Positions 47,003-60,285 of a DNA stretch of 64,000 bases are shown here, one piece after another. Every line of letters starts with the position of its first letter. Positions within the stretch are counted from its first letter, which is position 1. The notes beneath the pieces are model-generated. The model ran no database searches. It was not told where the DNA came from and worked only from the letters and a program-made list of their open reading frames with translations. This DNA comes from Celeribacter baekdonensis (GTDB taxonomy: Bacteria > Pseudomonadota > Alphaproteobacteria > Rhodobacterales > Rhodobacteraceae): assembly GCF_003047105.1 (NCBI RefSeq), contig NZ_CP028475.1:1488001-1552000 (forward strand), written 5' to 3'. Position numbers and translations under genes: made by a program.

Positions 47003-48103
47003 TCAGGCCATACCACCCGCAACCAAGCGCTGCGCCAGTTGCAGATAGGGCTCGGCCAGAGGACTGTCGGTCGCGGCAATCGGCACGCCTTCATCCCCTG
47101 CGATCCGCGCCTCAAGCGCCAAAGGCAGTTGCGCCAAGAACGGCACGCCGATCTTTTCGGCCTCTTCCGCCACGCCGCCATGGCCAAAAATATGCGCCTC
47201 ATGCCCGCAGTTCGGACAGATATACATCGACATATTTTCGATCAGCCCCAGCACTGGCACGTTCAACTTGTTGAACATCGAAATCCCGCGCCGTGCATCC
47301 ATCAAGGCCACATCCTGTGGCGTCGAGACCACAAGCGCGCCAGTCAGGTCGGTTTTTTGCCCCAACGTGAGCTGCACATCGCCCGTGCCCGGCGGCATGT
47401 CGATCAACAGCACATCCAACTCACCCCAAGCCACCTGCCCCAACATCTGTTGCATCGCGCCCATCAACATCGGCCCGCGCCAAACCACAGCTTCGCCATC
47501 CGGGATCATAAACCCGATCGACATCAAGGTGACGCCATGAGCATGCAGCGGCTCGATGGTTTCCCCATCAGGGCTGGCGGGGCGTTTGTTGACCCCCATC
47601 ATCCGCGGTTGCGACGGGCCATAAATGTCGGCATCCAAAAGCCCGACCTTGCGGCCCATTTTGGCCAAGGCGACGGCGAGATTGGCGGACACGGTGGATT
47701 TGCCCACGCCGCCCTTGCCCGAGGCAATGGCGATGACGTTTTGAACGCCGGCGGGCTTGGTCTTACCCTGCTGCGGCGTTGGATGGCGGCCAATTTTGAG
47801 GCTGGGCGGCTCTTTGCCCCCCGAAGTGGTCGCGGGCGGAGGCGTGGACCCGGCCGGGCCATGGGCGGTCATTACGATGGAAACCTTGCCAACCCCCTCC
47901 AAAGCCTCAAGCCGCGCCTTGGCCTCGGCCTCAACCCCGGACCAGGCGCGTGCGGCCGTGGCATCGGGGGCTTCAATGACGAAACGCACCACATCGCCCT
48001 CAACATTAAGGGCGCGCACGCGGTCGGCGTCCACAAGATTCGTGCCATCCGGCAACGCAACGCCCCGAAGGACCGTCATGATACTGTCGTGTTCTACGGG
48101 CAT
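47003..48103 (-). CDS. Mrp/ApbC family iron-sulfur cluster carrier ATPase
   Basis: A 366-residue protein; start MPVEHDSIMTVLRGVALPDG at 48103 with GGGATAGGA upstream. Residues 1-85 are a MIP18/DUF59-type domain. A Pro-rich linker follows, then the P-loop ATPase with the deviant Walker A ASGKGGVGKSTVSANLA. ENMSMYICPNCGHEAHIFG has the CPxC pair that binds a transferable [4Fe-4S] cluster. It supplies clusters to apo-proteins in the cytoplasm. Monocistronic. Confidence 0.96.
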   Translation of the reverse strand: MPVEHDSIMTVLRGVALPDGTNLVDADRVRALNVEGDVVRFVIEAPDATAARAWSGVEAEAKARLEALEGVGKVSIVMTAHGPAGSTPPPATTSGGKEPPSLKIGRHPTPQQGKTKPAGVQNVIAIASGKGGVGKSTVSANLAVALAKMGRKVGLLDADIYGPSQPRMMGVNKRPASPDGETIEPLHAHGVTLMSIGFMIPDGEAVVWRGPMLMGAMQQMLGQVAWGELDVLLIDMPPGTGDVQLTLGQKTDLTGALVVSTPQDVALMDARRGISMFNKLNVPVLGLIENMSMYICPNCGHEAHIFGHGGVAEEAEKIGVPFLAQLPLALEARIAGDEGVPIAATDSPLAEPYLQLAQRLVAGGMA

Positions 48104-48447
48104 AGATCCTATCCCTCTTTTGCTCTCCCCCCGAAATAGGCCCTTTGTTGACCCAATTCCACCACTCAATCCGACGCATTTTGTCCGTTCGCGGTGTTAC
48201 CGCAACCGCAACGGGAAAATAGGTCAGCATGGGTCATGCATTTTCTGCATGGCAGCATTGACAAGGTGGGGGATTGTGCATTCGCAGCAATTCCCCCAAA
48301 TTGAACTCAAGCAACGAGCGACAGAGCCGAAGCCCAAACCGCTTTAAGTCGCCCCCCACACGGGTGGCGCGCAGAGCGGAACAGGCCAAAGTCAGATCGC
48401 ACTCCCAAAGGGCAAACTGCCCAAACGCATACTAAGGTTAAAGTCAC
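48104..48447. other. Divergent promoter region, mrp and DUF1127 gene
   Basis: A 344-base gap. A small dyad ATGCA-TTTTC-TGCAT lies at 48236-48250. In Rhodobacter sphaeroides the homologous DUF1127-CcsR operon is driven by the heat-shock sigma factors RpoHI/RpoHII; I could not place such a promoter here with confidence. Confidence 0.4.
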
Positions 48448-48663
48448 ATGGCTTACGCAAACGACATTCGCAGCGCCGCACCGGCCTCCTCCGCCTCCTT
48501 CGGCGGTCTGTTCAAATCTTTGGCAGAACGGTTTGCACGCTACAAGGTCTACCGCGAAACAGTGCTCGAGCTGTCCGGTCTGACAGACCGCGATCTGGCC
48601 GACATGGGCATGTCCCGCGCCTCAATCAACGCTGTGGCTTACGAAGCCGCATACAGCAAATAA
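48448..48663 (+). CDS. DUF1127 small protein, CcaF1-like
   Basis: A 71-residue basic protein. The C-terminal half is a DUF1127 domain: YKVYRETVLELSGLTDRDLADMGMSRASINAVAYEAAY, with the L-x-x-L-(T/S)-D-R-x-L-x-D-(I/M)-G motif. The N-terminal MAYANDIRSAAPASSASFGG is Ala/Ser-rich. In R. sphaeroides the homologous gene (RSP_6037, ccaF1) encodes an RNA-binding protein that is co-transcribed with and matures the CcsR small RNAs. Here too an array of CCTCCTCCCT-loop hairpins begins about 14 bases after the stop. Confidence 0.92.
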   Translation: MAYANDIRSAAPASSASFGGLFKSLAERFARYKVYRETVLELSGLTDRDLADMGMSRASINAVAYEAAYSK

Positions 48664-48676
48664 GTTTACGACATCA

Positions 48677-48743
48677 CGGCCCTTCCTCCTCCCTGGGCCC
48701 TGATAAAAGCGGCGGCGTCTCTCCTCCTCCCTGACGTCGCCGC
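48677..48743 (+). ncRNA. CcsR-like (cuckoo) small RNA, unit 1
   Basis: Two hairpins. The first is GGCCC/GGGCC (48678-48699) with loop TTCCTCCTCCCT. The second has GCGGCGTC/GACGTCGCCGC arms (48712-48743, one bulge) with loop TCTCCTCCTCCCT. The linker is CTGATAAAA. The loop motif matches the CUCCUCCC motif of alphaproteobacterial cuckoo RNAs. Ends are approximate. Confidence 0.8.
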
Positions 48744-48758
48744 ACAGATACGGAATTT

Positions 48759-48827
48759 AGGGTTCTTCCTCCTCCCTTGGACCCTGAAGACCAGAGCGGC
48801 GATGCTTCCTCCTCCCTGCATCGTCGC
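48759..48827 (+). ncRNA. CcsR-like (cuckoo) small RNA, unit 2
   Basis: Hairpin AGGGTTC/GGACCCT (48759-48785) with loop TTCCTCCTCCCTT, a linker GAAGACCAGA, and hairpin GCGGCGATGC/GCATCGTCGC (48796-48827) with loop TTCCTCCTCCCT. A separate GGGC-GAAA-GCCC tetraloop hairpin (48837-48848) lies between units 2 and 3. Confidence 0.8.
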
Positions 48828-48856
48828 ACCTATACCGGGCGAAAGCCCTCGATATG

Positions 48857-48929
48857 CGGTCTCTCTTCCTCCTCCCTGAGGGGCCGTTACTGAAGGCGGC
48901 GGTGTCTTCCTCCTCCCTGACACCGCCGC
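48857..48929 (+). ncRNA. CcsR-like (cuckoo) small RNA, unit 3
   Basis: A weaker first hairpin CGGTCTC/GAGGGGCCG (48857-48886, internal loop) with loop TCTTCCTCCTCCCT. The second is a perfect 11-base stem GCGGCGGTGTC/GACACCGCCGC (48896-48929) with loop TTCCTCCTCCCT. Linker TTACTGAAG. Confidence 0.8.
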
Positions 48930-48943
48930 ATTTCTTTCTGATA

Positions 48944-49016
48944 CGGGTCCATCTCCTCCCTCGTGGCCCGCATACTGAGACACCCGCGCCCTCCTCCTCC
49001 CTGGCGCGGGTGTTTT
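48944..49016 (+). ncRNA. CcsR-like (cuckoo) small RNA, unit 4, with terminator
   Basis: The first hairpin CGGGTCCA/TGGCCCG (48944-48970) has the shortened loop TCTCCTCCCTCG. The second is a perfect 11-base stem ACACCCGCGCC/GGCGCGGGTGT (48980-49013) with loop CTCCTCCTCCCT, followed directly by TTT. The last stem therefore doubles as the Rho-independent terminator of the whole operon. Confidence 0.8.
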
Positions 49017-49041
49017 CATATCTAGCCTGTGAAATTTTGAG

Positions 49042-49191: not shown

Positions 49192-50355
49192 TTAGATCTG
49201 GAGCGTTTCCGACTGCGTCACGCTCTCAAATGCGGGCAAACCGCCGCCCGACCATCCCGGCCCTTTCAACAGATCCAAATGATAAGGGCGGCTCTGTTTG
49301 CGCCCCGGCGATAAGAAAAGTTTGGGCTTCTGTTTGCTTTGACCCGAAATTTGCGCCAAAAGCGCATGCCCCTCACGGACCGACAAAAACCGTCGGGCCG
49401 GGGTTTGCGCGTCTGACATGCCCAAAACATCCATCAGAGTTTCAACCGCACCGCTTTCGGGGGCCCCTTTGGGGGCGGCGGACGCTGCAACCATGACCTC
49501 GCGCGCCACACGGCCAAGATAGAGGCTTTCGCAGACCACATCCTGACAGGAAACCAATTCGTGGCGCTCAAACAACAAATGCACATAGGTGATACGGTCC
49601 TGCGGCCGAATCCGAATGTGAGTGCCATCCACAAAGGAAACAGCAGGTAAAAGCACCTGAGAGACGCCGTGTTTTTGCATCACCTCCTCGCCCTGCACCA
49701 ACACCCGATGATGTTGACTGAGACAAACCGGGCCAGAATTGCCAATTGCGCCGGGTTCAAACACCACCGGCGCATGGCGTCCCCATCCACGCACGTCGCG
49801 CGCCGCAACCCAACGCACCACTTGTGGACCGTGATCGTGGGTTAAAACCCGATCGCCGGGGCGAATCCGAACCGCAGGCATTGGCCCAGACGGGGTGTCG
49901 ATCGGCATCGAGGCTTCAAAACACACGGCTTGGTACGTGGTGCCGGGGTCTAAGTCAGTGTTGTGAAATTCGGGCGCCTGTCCGCCAACAAAATTGTTGA
50001 AATACCACGTTTCAAGGTCGAATTCGGGCGTCCAGACCACTTGGACCAATTCGCCATTGCTATCATAGCCCTCAAACACCACCGCATACCCTTCGTCGCC
50101 ACCATAGTTGATATAGTCAGATCGGACGACCGTCGCATTTTCGATGGTATCGCCGCCCTGCCCCGAAAAGGTCAACGTATAGGTGTCGCCAGGGGAAAAG
50201 ATGTAGGGGCTGTCATCACCCAGCTGCGATTCGATGATCAAGTCATGGGTGGACGTGGGCGGGTAGTCAAATTTCGACTGACCCGGCGACGAATTCACAT
50301 TTGACCCGGTTGACGCCGCAAATTGGCTGTCGATTGCATTGATGGTTATCGTCAT
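49192..50355 (-). CDS. Hint-domain protein (third in window)
   Basis: A 387-residue protein. Residues 1-155 are a Ser/Gly/Asp-rich region that may form beta structure (YTLTFSGQGGDTIENATVV). A Hint_2-type module begins at the Cys of VCFEASMPIDTPSGPMPAVRIRPGDRV and includes VCLSQHHRVLVQG and YVHLLFERHELVSCQDVVCESLYLG. A further 100 residues follow, ending in VTQSETLQI. Compared with the pair at the start of the window, the module is diverged (Phe-Glu-Ala after the Cys, extra Cys residues late). No classical signal peptide, so export, if any, is by another route. Confidence 0.85.
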   Translation of the reverse strand: MTITINAIDSQFAASTGSNVNSSPGQSKFDYPPTSTHDLIIESQLGDDSPYIFSPGDTYTLTFSGQGGDTIENATVVRSDYINYGGDEGYAVVFEGYDSNGELVQVVWTPEFDLETWYFNNFVGGQAPEFHNTDLDPGTTYQAVCFEASMPIDTPSGPMPAVRIRPGDRVLTHDHGPQVVRWVAARDVRGWGRHAPVVFEPGAIGNSGPVCLSQHHRVLVQGEEVMQKHGVSQVLLPAVSFVDGTHIRIRPQDRITYVHLLFERHELVSCQDVVCESLYLGRVAREVMVAASAAPKGAPESGAVETLMDVLGMSDAQTPARRFLSVREGHALLAQISGQSKQKPKLFLSPGRKQSRPYHLDLLKGPGWSGGGLPAFESVTQSETLQI

Positions 50356-56515: not shown

Positions 56516-56841
56516 GTCCAATACCCGTGTCAGATGCGGCCCATAAGGGGTGATTTTTTCATCTCTTATGGGCGGCGATTCCCATGATCTGCGGCTCAGA
56601 AATCTGATCAAATGACAGGTTTGCAAAATACGGCACCTTCCAAGGTCTGATTTGCTAATAACCTGAGTTTATTTTGCTAAACTGCAAATTATTGTACCGG
56701 AACGTCCAGTTACCGCCCTTTGTGCAGCTTTTGAACACCTGTTTCCAATGCCTCCACGACCATCCGTTGTTTTGGGGATTTACTGCACCGCAGAAATCCC
56801 TAACCTGATGAAAATTTCAGCGTCACAGGGGAGACTGCGAG
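56516..56841. other. Intergenic region before pyc
   Basis: A 326-base gap. It contains a long hairpin, GCCCATAAG/CTTATGGGC arms (56539-56573) with TGATTTTTTCA in the loop, just after the MFS gene, probably its terminator. The rest is AT-richer than average (56610-56700) and should contain the pyc promoter; nothing else seen. Confidence 0.5.
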
Positions 56842-59800
56842 ATGGCGAACTTCAAAAAAGTCCTGATAGCCAACCGGGGGGAGATCGCGATCCGCGTCAT
56901 GCGCGCCGCCAATGAAATGGGCAAACGCACGGTCGCCATCTACGCCGAAGAGGACAAACTTTCCCTGCACCGTTTCAAGGCCGATGAGGCCTATAAAATC
57001 GGTGAAGGCATGGGGCCCGTTGCGGCCTATCTTTCCATCGAGGAAATCATCCGCGTCGCCAAACTGTCTGGCGCGGATGCGATTCATCCGGGCTATGGCC
57101 TTCTCTCGGAAAACCCCGATTTCGTCGATGCTTGTACCGAAGCGGGCATCACCTTTATCGGCCCCAAAGCCAAAACCATGCGCGAATTGGGCGACAAGGC
57201 CAGCGCGCGCAAAGTTGCGGTCAAGGCAGGCGTGCCAGTGATCCCGGCAACGGATGTGTTGGGCGATGATTGGGACGCGATCCGCAAAGAAGCCAGCGAA
57301 ATCGGCTTTCCCTTGATGCTCAAGGCCTCTTGGGGCGGCGGCGGACGCGGGATGCGTCCGATCATGAATGCCGAAGAGTTGGAAGAAAAAGTCAAAGAGG
57401 GTCGCCGCGAGGCTGTATCGGCCTTTGGCAACGGCGAAGGCTATCTGGAAAAGATGATCATCCGCGCCCGTCACGTTGAGGTGCAAATCCTCGGGGACAG
57501 CCAAGGCAATATCTACCACCTCTATGAACGCGATTGTTCGGTCCAGCGCCGCAACCAAAAGGTCGTCGAACGCGCCCCTGCCCCCTACCTCTCCGAGACC
57601 CAGCGCGAAGAGATTTGTAACCTCGGCAAGCGCATCTGTGAATTTGTGAATTACGAATGCGCTGGCACGGTCGAATTCCTGATGGATATGGACACCGGCA
57701 AATTCTATTTCATCGAGGTCAACCCACGGGTGCAGGTCGAGCATACCGTGACCGAAGAGGTCACCGGCATCGACATCGTGCGGGCGCAAATCCTGATTGC
57801 CGAGGGCAAATCCTTGGTCGAGGCCACAGGGGTTGCGTCACAATATGATGTGAAACTTGACGGGCATGCGCTTCAGTGCCGGGTCACGACCGAAGATCCC
57901 GCCAACAATTTCATCCCCGATTATGGCCGCATCACCACCTATCGCTCAGCCACCGGCATGGGCATCCGTTTGGACGGCGGCACGGCCTATTCCGGCGCGG
58001 TGATCACGCGGTATTACGACAGTTTGCTCACCAAAGTGACCGCTTGGGCGCCGACTCCTGAGGCGGCGATTGCACGGATGGACCGGGCGTTGCGCGAATT
58101 CCGTATTCGCGGAGTCTCCACCAACATTGCCTTTGTTGAAAACCTGCTGAAACACCCGATTTTCCTCGGCAATGAATACACCACGAAATTTATTGATGAG
58201 ACGCCGTCGCTGTTTGATTTCAAACCGCGCCGCGACCGGGCGACGAAAATCCTGACCTATCTTTCGGAGATCACGGTCAACGGCCACCCCGAAACCTTGG
58301 GTCGGGCCAAACCCGCCGCAGATGCCCGCACCCCGACGATCCCGGCCTTGCGGATGGAAACACCCCTGCCCGGCACGCGGCAGCTTTTGGACGCGCAAGG
58401 CCCGCAAGCGGTGGCCGATTGGATGCTGGCGCAAAAGCAGCTTTTGATCACCGACACCACCATGCGTGACGGCCACCAATCGCTGTTGGCCACCCGGATG
58501 CGTTCGATCGACATGATCAACGCCGCCCCCGCCTATGCCGCCAATCTGCCGGGGCTGTTCTCGGTCGAATGTTGGGGCGGCGCGACCTTTGATGTGGCCT
58601 ATCGGTTCTTGCAGGAATGCCCGTGGCAGCGCCTGCGCGACATCCGCGAAAAGATGCCAAACCTGATGACGCAAATGCTTTTGCGCGCCTCAAACGGCGT
58701 AGGTTACACCAACTACCCTGACAATGTGGTACAGAGTTTTGTCAAACAGGCGGCCGAGACCGGCGTCGATGTGTTCCGCGTCTTCGACAGTCTCAACTGG
58801 GTCGAAAACATGCGCGTGGCGATGGATGCGGTGATCGAGTCTGGCAAGGTCTGTGAAGGCACGATCTGTTACACGGGTGATCTGTTTGATCCGGCGCGGG
58901 CCAAATATGACCTGAAATACTATGTCCAGATGGGCAAGGATTTGAAGGCTGCGGGGGCGCATGTTTTGGGTCTCAAAGACATGGCGGGCCTGTTGAAACC
59001 GGCGCAAGCGCGGGTGCTGGTCAAAGCTCTGAAAGAAGAGGTCGGCCTGCCGATCCACTTCCACACCCATGACACCTCTGGGGCCGCCGCCGCAACGATT
59101 TTGGCCGCAGCCGACGCGGGTGTCGATGCGATTGACGCCGCAATGGATGCCTTTTCTGGCGGCACCTCACAGGCGTGTTTGGGCTCCATCGTCGAAGCCA
59201 CGCGATTCACCGAGCGCGACACCGGACTTGATATTTCCGCCATCCGCGAGCTGTCCAACTATTGGGAAGCGGTGCGCGGCCAATATGCGGCGTTTGAAAG
59301 TGGCCTCAAAGCCCCCGCGTCCGAGGTCTACCTACACGAAATGCCCGGCGGACAGTTCACCAACCTCAAAGCCCAGGCCCGCTCGCTGGGCTTGGAGGAA
59401 AAATGGCATGAGGTGGCGCAATGCTACGCCGATGTGAACATGATGTTCGGCGACATCGTCAAGGTCACGCCCTCCTCGAAAGTGGTCGGGGACATGGCGC
59501 TGATGATGGTCTCCCAAGGCCTGACCCGCGCTCAGGTCGAAGACCCGAAACACGACGTCGCCTTCCCGGATTCGGTGATCGACATGATGCGTGGCAATTT
59601 GGGCCAGCCGCCAAATGGCTTCCCCGACACGATCCTCAAAAAGGTTCTTGGCAAAGAAAAACCCAACCTTGAACGCCCCGGCAAACACCTGCCGGCGGTG
59701 GATTTGGAGGCGACGCGCAAAGAGTTGGCCGCTAAATTTGAGGACTGCGCCATTGATGATGAGGATCTCAACGGCTACCTGATGTACCCAAAGGTGTTCA

Positions 59801-60285
59801 CCGATTACATGGACCGCCACGATCAATTCGGCCCGGTTCGGACCTTGCCGACGAAAAACTTTTTCTACGGCATGGAGATGGGCGAAGAGATTTCAGTGTC
59901 GATCGACCCCGGCGTGACCTTGGAAATCCGCTGTCAGGCCTTGGGTGAGCCGGATGAAAAGGGTGAGGTCAAACTGTTTTTCGAACTGAACGGCCAGCCG
60001 CGCACCGTGCGTGTCAAAGACCGCTCTGCGGCGTCCACCACCACCGCGCGGCCCAAAGCCGAACTCGGCAACCCCAAACACATTGGTGCGCCGATGCCCG
60101 GCGTTGTGGCGACAGTGGCAGTGACCGCGGGCCAAAAGGTCAAAAAGGGTGATGTGTTGGTGACCATCGAGGCGATGAAAATGGAAACCTCGATCAACGC
60201 CGACCAAGACGGCGTGATCAAGGCGGTCAATGTCAGCCCCGCCAGTCAGATCGACGCCAAGGATCTCTTGGTCGAGTTCGAATAA
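56842..60285 (+). CDS. pyc: Pyruvate carboxylase
   Basis: A 1147-residue multidomain enzyme that carboxylates pyruvate to oxaloacetate. Residues 1-460 are biotin carboxylase (KVLIANRGEIAIRVMRAANEMG; ATP-grasp loop ASWGGGGRGMR; EVNPRVQVEHTVTEEVTG). Residues about 535-830 are the carboxyltransferase TIM barrel (TDTTMRDGHQSLLATRMR; HFHTHDTSGAAAATILAA metal His pair). A PC tetramerisation region follows. The last 75 residues are the biotin carrier domain with biotinyl Lys in VTIEAMKMETSI. Full family length, single chain. Anaplerotic role. Confidence 0.98.
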   Translation: MANFKKVLIANRGEIAIRVMRAANEMGKRTVAIYAEEDKLSLHRFKADEAYKIGEGMGPVAAYLSIEEIIRVAKLSGADAIHPGYGLLSENPDFVDACTEAGITFIGPKAKTMRELGDKASARKVAVKAGVPVIPATDVLGDDWDAIRKEASEIGFPLMLKASWGGGGRGMRPIMNAEELEEKVKEGRREAVSAFGNGEGYLEKMIIRARHVEVQILGDSQGNIYHLYERDCSVQRRNQKVVERAPAPYLSETQREEICNLGKRICEFVNYECAGTVEFLMDMDTGKFYFIEVNPRVQVEHTVTEEVTGIDIVRAQILIAEGKSLVEATGVASQYDVKLDGHALQCRVTTEDPANNFIPDYGRITTYRSATGMGIRLDGGTAYSGAVITRYYDSLLTKVTAWAPTPEAAIARMDRALREFRIRGVSTNIAFVENLLKHPIFLGNEYTTKFIDETPSLFDFKPRRDRATKILTYLSEITVNGHPETLGRAKPAADARTPTIPALRMETPLPGTRQLLDAQGPQAVADWMLAQKQLLITDTTMRDGHQSLLATRMRSIDMINAAPAYAANLPGLFSVECWGGATFDVAYRFLQECPWQRLRDIREKMPNLMTQMLLRASNGVGYTNYPDNVVQSFVKQAAETGVDVFRVFDSLNWVENMRVAMDAVIESGKVCEGTICYTGDLFDPARAKYDLKYYVQMGKDLKAAGAHVLGLKDMAGLLKPAQARVLVKALKEEVGLPIHFHTHDTSGAAAATILAAADAGVDAIDAAMDAFSGGTSQACLGSIVEATRFTERDTGLDISAIRELSNYWEAVRGQYAAFESGLKAPASEVYLHEMPGGQFTNLKAQARSLGLEEKWHEVAQCYADVNMMFGDIVKVTPSSKVVGDMALMMVSQGLTRAQVEDPKHDVAFPDSVIDMMRGNLGQPPNGFPDTILKKVLGKEKPNLERPGKHLPAVDLEATRKELAAKFEDCAIDDEDLNGYLMYPKVFTDYMDRHDQFGPVRTLPTKNFFYGMEMGEEISVSIDPGVTLEIRCQALGEPDEKGEVKLFFELNGQPRTVRVKDRSAASTTTARPKAELGNPKHIGAPMPGVVATVAVTAGQKVKKGDVLVTIEAMKMETSINADQDGVIKAVNVSPASQIDAKDLLVEFE

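Follow-up and report, generated by a model that had tools for sequence, protein, structure and literature searches.

The question raised by this locus of Celeribacter baekdonensis is whether the hairpins behind a DUF1127 gene form selected RNA structure of a known family, and what controls them. The window analysed here is the whole 64-kb stretch of contig NZ_CP028475.1, and a sequence-only reading had placed a CcsR/cuckoo RNA operon at 48448..49016 of it. The features are collected in Table 1.

The hairpin array and its DUF1127 gene

The motif CTCCTCCCT occurs in eight copies in the window, all on the plus strand between 48686 and 49002. By chance it is expected far less often; 100 dinucleotide shuffles of the window give a mean of 0.23 copies and a largest count of 3. 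The DUF1127 frame ends at 48663 and the first hairpin begins at 48673 on the same strand. The fold of 48661-49020 places one hairpin at each CTCCTCCCT loop, eight in total, with a minimum free energy of -159.6 versus -109.65 ± 5.1 for 100 shuffles (z -9.79). Motif count, fold and PF06568 match thus bear out the eight stem-loops that the sequence-only reading described after a DUF1127 gene. Its grouping of the hairpins into four two-hairpin units is supported by the fold energies of the units, which are -36.1, -34.2, -40.4 and -35.4 kcal/mol. The loop had been called nearly constant, and it is nearly but not fully so: seven of the eight hairpins hold CCTCCTCCCT, and hairpin seven has CATCTCCTCCCT. 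The arms vary between copies yet pair, as had been claimed. Covariation across the eight copies, aligned with MAFFT with ungapped loops (71.2% of cells pairing), is 0.524 versus 0.222 in shuffled alignments, and none of 500 shuffles is as high. The stem score is 9.0 with the hairpins' own arms and 4.33 with arms swapped between them. The last stem had been taken as a terminator. This is plausible from its 14-bp stem running into TTTT, but a simple terminator scan makes no call; the scan accepts loops of 3-8, and the loop of the last hairpin is 12.

An antisense open frame of 117 aa spans the entire array on the minus strand (48666-49019) and is probably a by-product of the repeated AGGGAGGAGG. 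The flanking genes, both on the minus strand, encode a Hint_2-domain protein (49192-50355) and an Mrp/ApbC-type P-loop ATPase (47003-48169).

Table 1. Features of the operon and its upstream region in window coordinates. RF02791 scores of units 1-3 are from the window scan, that of unit 4 from the whole-genome scan (C4:1536934-1537018).
Feature	Position	Strand	Evidence
LysR-type box TGCA-N6-GCAT, LsrB-like, predicted	48237..48250	+	motif conservation; published LsrB site
PhaR-like box 1, TTTTCTGCATGGCAGCATT	48241..48259		phasin-promoter matrix, rank 1 of window, 24.1 bits
PhaR-like box 2, GATTGTGCATTCGCAGCAAT, 4-base spacer, over -35	48272..48291		phasin-promoter matrix, rank 3 of window, 14.5 bits
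Promoter-like pair TTGTGC ... CCCCAAATT	48274..48302	+	conserved columns; resembles RpoH-type
DUF1127 protein, CcaF1-like, 71 aa	48448..48663	+	PF06568, E 5.7e-11
CcsR-like unit 1	48664..48748	+	hairpins 48673-48704 and 48709-48743; RF02791 52.8 bits, E 4.5e-12; fold
CcsR-like unit 2	48753..48832	+	hairpins 48756-48788 and 48796-48827; RF02791 30.8 bits, E 1.4e-5; fold
CcsR-like unit 3	48851..48934	+	hairpins 48856-48887 and 48896-48929; RF02791 39.6 bits, E 3.8e-8; fold
CcsR-like unit 4	48935..49020	+	hairpins 48944-48970 and 48977-49016 (last terminator-like); RF02791 31.4 bits, E 1.6e-5; fold

Conservation of pairing in relatives

Scanning of genome contigs for three spaced motifs gives at least 120 loci. 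In 69 of the 120 loci listed a DUF1127 hit (HMMER) lies less than 200 nt upstream, and these arrays contain 3 to 16 motifs each. Motif triplets are also found in unrelated bacteria, and 51 of the 120 listed loci are without a DUF1127 hit, as a chance cluster or simple repeat with unselected RNA structure would allow. However, stems are formed at only 88 of 260 motifs in these 51 loci, versus 517 of 577 motifs in the DUF1127-linked ones. The cognate stem score is 8.87 and the swapped score 4.48 over 585 hairpins of the 70 arrays listed (69 relatives and the window), and the direction is the same in all 70. The pairing tests, the motif shuffles and the fold z of -9.79 rule out a chance repeat, and its probability is practically negligible.

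The number of motifs is even in 53 of the 70 arrays. Among the even-numbered arrays listed, stems are stronger in the second hairpin of a pair than in the first (9.9 vs 7.9), as expected if two-hairpin units duplicate. A spaced motif pair is present in 296 of 390 sampled genomes of the order. Separately, Devosia-type loci (L012, L016, L019, L020 and others) carry three-hairpin arrays without a DUF1127 hit, and some of them show two pattern matches several hundred bases apart.

Family assignment

Taken whole, the locus is best explained as a CIN1/CcsR operon, and we hold this assignment with very high confidence. Its layout is that of ccaF1-CcsR1-4 and its four units are matched by RF02791, which supports the CcsR/cuckoo identity proposed from the sequence. 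The ccaF1-CcsR1-4 operon is described as a gene for a 71-aa DUF1127 protein, four co-transcribed CcsR RNAs and a 3' terminator, together termed the 'CIN1 locus', and such loci with a DUF1127 protein and CcsR-like RNAs are frequent among alphaproteobacteria (PMC10253847). As a CIN1/CcsR ("cuckoo") locus of Rhodobacterales the array is unexceptional, and the array finding itself is already explained.

The RNA-family search of the array gives a divided answer. The CcsR1 model (RF02791) matches with E-values from 4.5e-12 to 1.6e-5, but all matches are under its gathering score of 65.3, the best being 52.8 bits. For the ar14 model (RF02344) the scores are 54.0 and 52.2 bits, short of its gathering score, 58.8. 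With a cut-off as loose as E <= 10, hits of the CcsR1 model turn up in 12 of 14 control genomes too; all matches relied on in this analysis reach E <= 1.6e-5. At gathering thresholds, Rfam finds two tRNAs in the whole window and nothing else. Since the best score is under the gathering score, we class the locus as CIN1/CcsR-type without assigning it to RF02791.

Loop complementarity to Shine-Dalgarno sequences

The loops presumably resemble the 3' end of 16S rRNA. In a genome sample of 1356 mechanically called ORFs, false ORFs included, GGGAGGA, which is complementary to the loop, is more frequent than any other 7-mer in the 20 nt preceding ATG (15 occurrences, 21-fold enriched). In the same sample AAAGGAG and AAAAGGA occur 14 times each, and AAGGGAG is more enriched, 30-fold. 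Upstream, AGGGAGGA is found 9 times versus 0.29 expected and AAGGAGGA once versus 0.06 expected. We use the 7-mer count instead of a Shine-Dalgarno count against the reversed pattern (71 vs 0), which is a weak control. The pairing of the loops with G-rich ribosome-binding sites that had been suggested is compatible with these data, and by sequence the 7-mer counts fit loops that are antisense to Shine-Dalgarno sequences. Before ATG, however, 16S-like 7-mers such as AAAGGAG nearly equal GGGAGGA in frequency, which counts against the proposed pairing.

The loops might instead act mainly as decoys that imitate the 16S rRNA 3' end and titrate a protein or G-rich RNAs. The 3 to 16 motifs per transcript in the 69 DUF1127-linked loci listed suit titration, but the stand-alone copies described below carry two hairpins only and the loops match common Shine-Dalgarno 7-mers. 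In addition, flhR is a reported mRNA target of CcsR in R. sphaeroides (PMC8307010), and antisense action on Shine-Dalgarno sequences is proposed for NfeR1 (PMC10746234). We consider a mainly decoy role improbable.

Promoter and LysR-type box

The promoter elements lie about 150-210 bp upstream of the DUF1127 gene, outside 48448..49016. Upstream regions were taken from 70 arrays (69 listed relatives and the window), and two of less than 150 nt were left out. Among the loci listed, TTGTGCANNNGCAGCA is present with at most two mismatches in 66 of 68 regions, with three mismatches in one, and is missing from one. Of 67 listed loci, 62 have TGC[AG]-N6-GCAT at offset -36/-37 relative to TTG, versus 0 of 67 in a control window. 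The spacing from TTG to CCCC is 20 nt, and the -10 element has the loose consensus cc.cat.Tt in the relatives listed, where the window has CCCCAAATT. There is no sigma-70 match at the promoter-like pair. From its sequence, the TTGTGC ... CCCCAAATT pair resembles an RpoH-type (RpoHI/RpoHII) promoter, and RpoHI/RpoHII is the promoter type given for ccaF1-CcsR1-4 (PMC10253847). The operator strings of two congeners of the window's genome (G356 and G157) are identical to those of Celeribacter litoreus (L043) and Pacificibacter maritimus (L090), so these two are probably near relatives of the window.

The LysR-type box has a counterpart in rhizobia. NfeR1, whose three hairpins have the same loops, carries TGCA-N6-GCAT as its LsrB site, a close match to the LsrB site of AbcR1 (PMC10746234). 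Because TGCA-N6-GCAT is found in NfeR1 and in CIN1 loci alike, a LysR-type input seems to be common to the anti-Shine-Dalgarno RNAs of rhizobia and of Rhodobacterales. In 18 hand-picked Devosia-type loci without a DUF1127 hit, GCATRGCNGNCAT, and with it the GCATRGC part, is kept in 16 and the second box described below is found in none.

PhaR-like boxes at the -35 region

We take the PhaR box of R. sphaeroides to have the form CTGCN3-4GCAG. A half-site matrix was built from 30 paired phasin-promoter boxes, contains zero CIN1 sequences and was run over the window with spacers of 3 and 4. These boxes come from 31 phaR loci, 30 fetched and the genome's own. Paired boxes are present in 15 of the 31, 26-30 nt apart, with an RNY centre in 30 of 30 boxes. 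Among the other 16 loci, 10 have boxes that are unpaired or elsewhere and 6 are without any CTGCN3GCAG. The paired boxes precede phasin-like ORFs as judged by eye; at one locus (L191) the script chose another frame. The genome's own phaR neighbourhood holds a phasin gene (PF09361) with boxes CTGCGGTGCAG and CTGCACCGCAG, 29 nt apart.

Sites matching the phasin-promoter boxes are present near the -35 of the CIN1 operon as ranks 1 and 3 of the window, though centre and spacer deviate. Box 1 shares bases with the LysR-type box and has ATG at its centre where phasin boxes have RNY; across relatives the centre of CIN1 box 1 is ATA or ATG. Among the loci listed, box 2 scores at p < 1e-4 with the phasin matrix in 63 of 66 relatives and box 1 in 58 of 66. 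In a 0.8-Mb sample of the genome, picked so as to include the C6, C2, CIN1 and phaP loci, the best six sites are those of the C6 copy (twice), CIN1 box 1, the C2 copy and two phaP boxes, C2 and C6 being contigs described below. The second boxes score lower in this sample, at 15.9, 15.9 and 14.5.

Rank 2 of the window is at 56779 (17.1 bits). This PhaR-type box (56779-56797) has an RNY centre and lies 44 nt before a pyruvate carboxylase gene (ORF 56842-60285). Carbon-metabolism genes are reported PhaR targets in Bradyrhizobium (PMC6201568).

The arrangement of the two boxes is similar to described PhaR operators. In Bradyrhizobium the PhaR consensus is TGCRNYGCASMA, the sites flank or overlap -35, and PHB nearly abolishes PhaR binding (PMC6201568). 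In Sinorhizobium PhaR represses the small RNA MmgR through the site CAATTGTGCACCGCAGCATTA (PMC12542648). A two-box PhaR layout around -35 is described in both papers (PMC6201568, PMC12542648). PhaR control of the operon is a prediction from sequence that we judge likely. Box 1 as a plain PhaR site is weakened, because the overlapping GCATRGC is kept in Devosia-type loci and in phaR-less genomes; it would be at least partly something other than a PhaR site. A literature search for the PhaR box by its sequence returned nothing relevant. No paper linking PhaR with CcsR was found among the best matches, where coverage is thin for subscription papers, including the primary CcsR/cuckoo ones. Of six papers that name PhaR together with another term of this field, five are unrelated; in the sixth, PMC9230146, PhaR and DUF1127 each occur twice. 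The conserved LysR-type box and PhaR-like boxes before the CIN1 operon look new and go beyond the known account.

Genomes without phaR

The phaR gene (TIGR01848) is present in 388 of 390 genomes of the order. The two genomes without it (G081 and G247) belong to one genus and are also without the PHA synthase TIGR01838, which the three other genomes checked have. Since they are congeners, the pair counts as one loss event. What both have lost is the GCAG half of box 2 (scores -23.3 and -17.4), whereas the LysR-type box, TTGTGC and CAAATT are retained. A DUF1127-like ORF is seen by eye in each, with 5 and 6 spaced motif pairs. The overlapping CTCCTCC matches in these two loci (13 and 19) are not hairpin counts and are unused.

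A strict operator pattern is failed by 95 of the 390 genomes. Operator and array are both present in 229 genomes, the array alone in 67, the operator alone in 66 and neither in 28; this tabulation is from zeros read by eye and sums to the tool tallies. The array is present and the strict pattern failed in 65 phaR-carrying genomes. Twelve of these were examined and 11 have TTGTGCNNNNGCAG, hence a preserved box 2; the twelfth (L259) is without TTGTGCNNNNGCAG and without a DUF1127-like ORF. In four genomes of one genus (g12) the first box is decayed and a CTGCNNNGCAG site lies 113-114 nt upstream of the second box, with an RNY centre in three of the four.

These comparisons bear on a simpler account, in which nothing but heat-shock sigma factors and a LysR-type activator controls a plain CcsR operon. 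The PhaR likeness would then be a by-product of a TGC/GCA-rich activator site and promoter, and box 2 would be read by another regulator or by none. The overlap of box 1 with the LysR-type box, its departure from the RNY centre and the retention of the GCATRGC part in phaR-less and Devosia-type loci all agree with this, and RpoHI/RpoHII, not PhaR, are named for R. sphaeroides in the accessible text of PMC10253847. However, a matrix free of CIN1 sequences puts the boxes first and third in 64 kb, the GCAG half of box 2 is lost only without phaR among the loci examined, and the boxes of plasmid copies have an RNY centre. We regard the plain operon as rather unlikely.

Stand-alone copies on plasmids and phage-like contigs

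RF02791 also matches contigs C2 (32.6 bits) and C6 (38.0 bits) of the same genome. The ends of C6 overlap by 14.3 kb at 99.4%, so the two C6 copies are counted as one; C6 is probably circular, a replicon of about 100 kb whose ends are duplicated in the contig. From their size (123 and 114 kb for C2 and C6), overlapping ends and plasmid matches, both contigs look like plasmids. Their copies consist of the palindrome, TTGTGCNNNNGCAG, the -10 element and two hairpins without DUF1127. In the second hairpin the arms GGCGGCATCC and GGATGCCGCC enclose the loop, and T-rich sequence comes next; this plasmid-type hairpin is present in 15 of the 390 genomes. The string CTGCATNGCAGCA has five sites in the genome, namely CIN1, C2, C6 twice and one other. 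The fifth site (G000:C4:2132669, L156) is independent of CTCCTCC and precedes a small ORF without a Pfam-type name in NCBIfam.

In a plasmid collection, 18 of 72,556 records match. All are from Rhodobacterales genera and 15 are typed mobilizable; an example of a carrier is p3SUD7 of Sulfitobacter sp. D7, a rep_cluster_392 plasmid. There are no annotated features under the 18 matches in this collection, which lists no RNA genes. A blast of the array itself against plasmids gives three records with short matches. The neighbourhoods differ among the 10 of the 18 plasmids that were opened. A ParB/DUF3768 backbone is beside the copy in five, in four of them followed by a strawberry-notch gene; the other settings are a place between T4SS genes and a relaxase block (two), a position after pcaF (two) and one beside mexB (one). 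Six plasmid copies were read in sequence, and all six have TTGTGCNNNNGCAG and two CTCCTCC loops, while four have the strict palindrome.

A broad pattern gives at least 120 viral loci, and 13 of the matches listed passed a loose filter. A narrower operator pattern matches 21 IMG/VR contigs, and three of these (L285, L313 and L506) have CTCCTCC 44-45 nt downstream. L285 and L313, two of the 13 filtered matches, carry the full cassette by eye, second hairpin included. Their copies adjoin minor-tail and tail-terminator genes (found by search), and L506 has the same two tail ORFs by eye. A tRNA-Met and a tRNA-Leu follow the copy in L285 and L313 and are absent in L506. Judged from their sequence, the three are apparent phage contigs. 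The phage-contig copy has no match in the phage and plasmid collections. No plasmid-encoded copies were found in the literature by title or abstract start among the best matches, where coverage is thin for subscription papers. The stand-alone two-hairpin copies with related control elements on plasmids and phage-like contigs look new and go beyond the known account; any function of these mobile copies is a prediction.

Proposed mechanism

We propose that one transcript, with a putative start near 48310, encodes the DUF1127 RNA-binding protein and would be processed to four RNAs of about 85 nt, each with two hairpins. In R. sphaeroides, RNase E and CcaF1 mature the CcsR RNAs (PMC8625941). The CCUCCUCCC loops would pair with GGGAGGA-type Shine-Dalgarno sequences and reduce translation or stability of many mRNAs, the targets here being predicted ones, and the main role of the arms would be keeping the loops open. 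A heat-shock-like promoter and a LysR-type (LsrB-like) activator box may drive transcription, the LysR-type control being putative, and PhaR on the -35 would repress the operon. Stored polyhydroxybutyrate might titrate PhaR, or stress might act, and the RNAs would be released; PHB, redox and heat are all candidate release signals.

In its widest form, the proposal is that across Rhodobacterales the PHB sensor PhaR, combined with an LsrB-like activator, acts directly through the CcsR RNAs, linking carbon storage and redox to translation, and that the same cassette has moved to plasmids and prophage-like elements, with mobile elements dosing a host stress RNA. We regard this as an evenly balanced question. 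The locus itself is one more CIN1 operon. CcsR RNAs of R. sphaeroides have reported effects on C1 metabolism and pyruvate dehydrogenase (PMC10253847, PMC8307010, PMC8625941). If the promoter reading is true, it would explain the tie of such small RNAs to carbon storage, and it would provide one testable regulator for a module whose motif pair is so widespread in the order. As for the copies on plasmids and phage-like contigs, they would represent mobile small RNAs whose targets are ribosome-binding sites of the host.

Comparison with known systems

The closest system is ccaF1-CcsR1-4 of R. sphaeroides, which likewise has a 71-aa DUF1127 gene followed by four homologous small-RNA units. The Celeribacter array differs in scoring under the Rfam gathering score, and PhaR or LysR-type boxes are unmentioned for R. 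sphaeroides in the accessible text of PMC10253847. The cuckoo RNA family (Reinkensmeier and Giegerich 2015, as cited in PMC10253847 and PMC10746234) is alike in its adjacent CCUCCUCCC-loop hairpins with variable stems; the window array has eight hairpins. NfeR1 / alpha-r14 (RF02344 ar14) of Sinorhizobium shares the CCUCCUCCC hairpin loops and the upstream TGCA-N6-GCAT LsrB site. However, it is a single 123-nt RNA with three hairpins, and its promoter is of the sigma-70 type and comes with an NtrC site (PMC10746234), whereas in the window a heat-shock-like promoter and DUF1127 precede four two-hairpin units.

For the promoter, the Sinorhizobium MmgR gene is a case of a small-RNA promoter with a PhaR site, and its CAATTGTGCACCGCAGCATTA is close to window box 2, GATTGTGCATTCGCAGCAAT (PMC12542648). 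MmgR, however, is an RNA of its own with a reported role in adjusting PHB and phasins, and window box 2 has one extra spacer base. The phaP promoters of Rhodobacterales are alike in having two TGC/GCA boxes about three turns apart near -35. Their boxes have an RNY centre and a 3-base spacer, whereas CIN1 box 1 has ATA or ATG at its centre and box 2 has a 4-base spacer.
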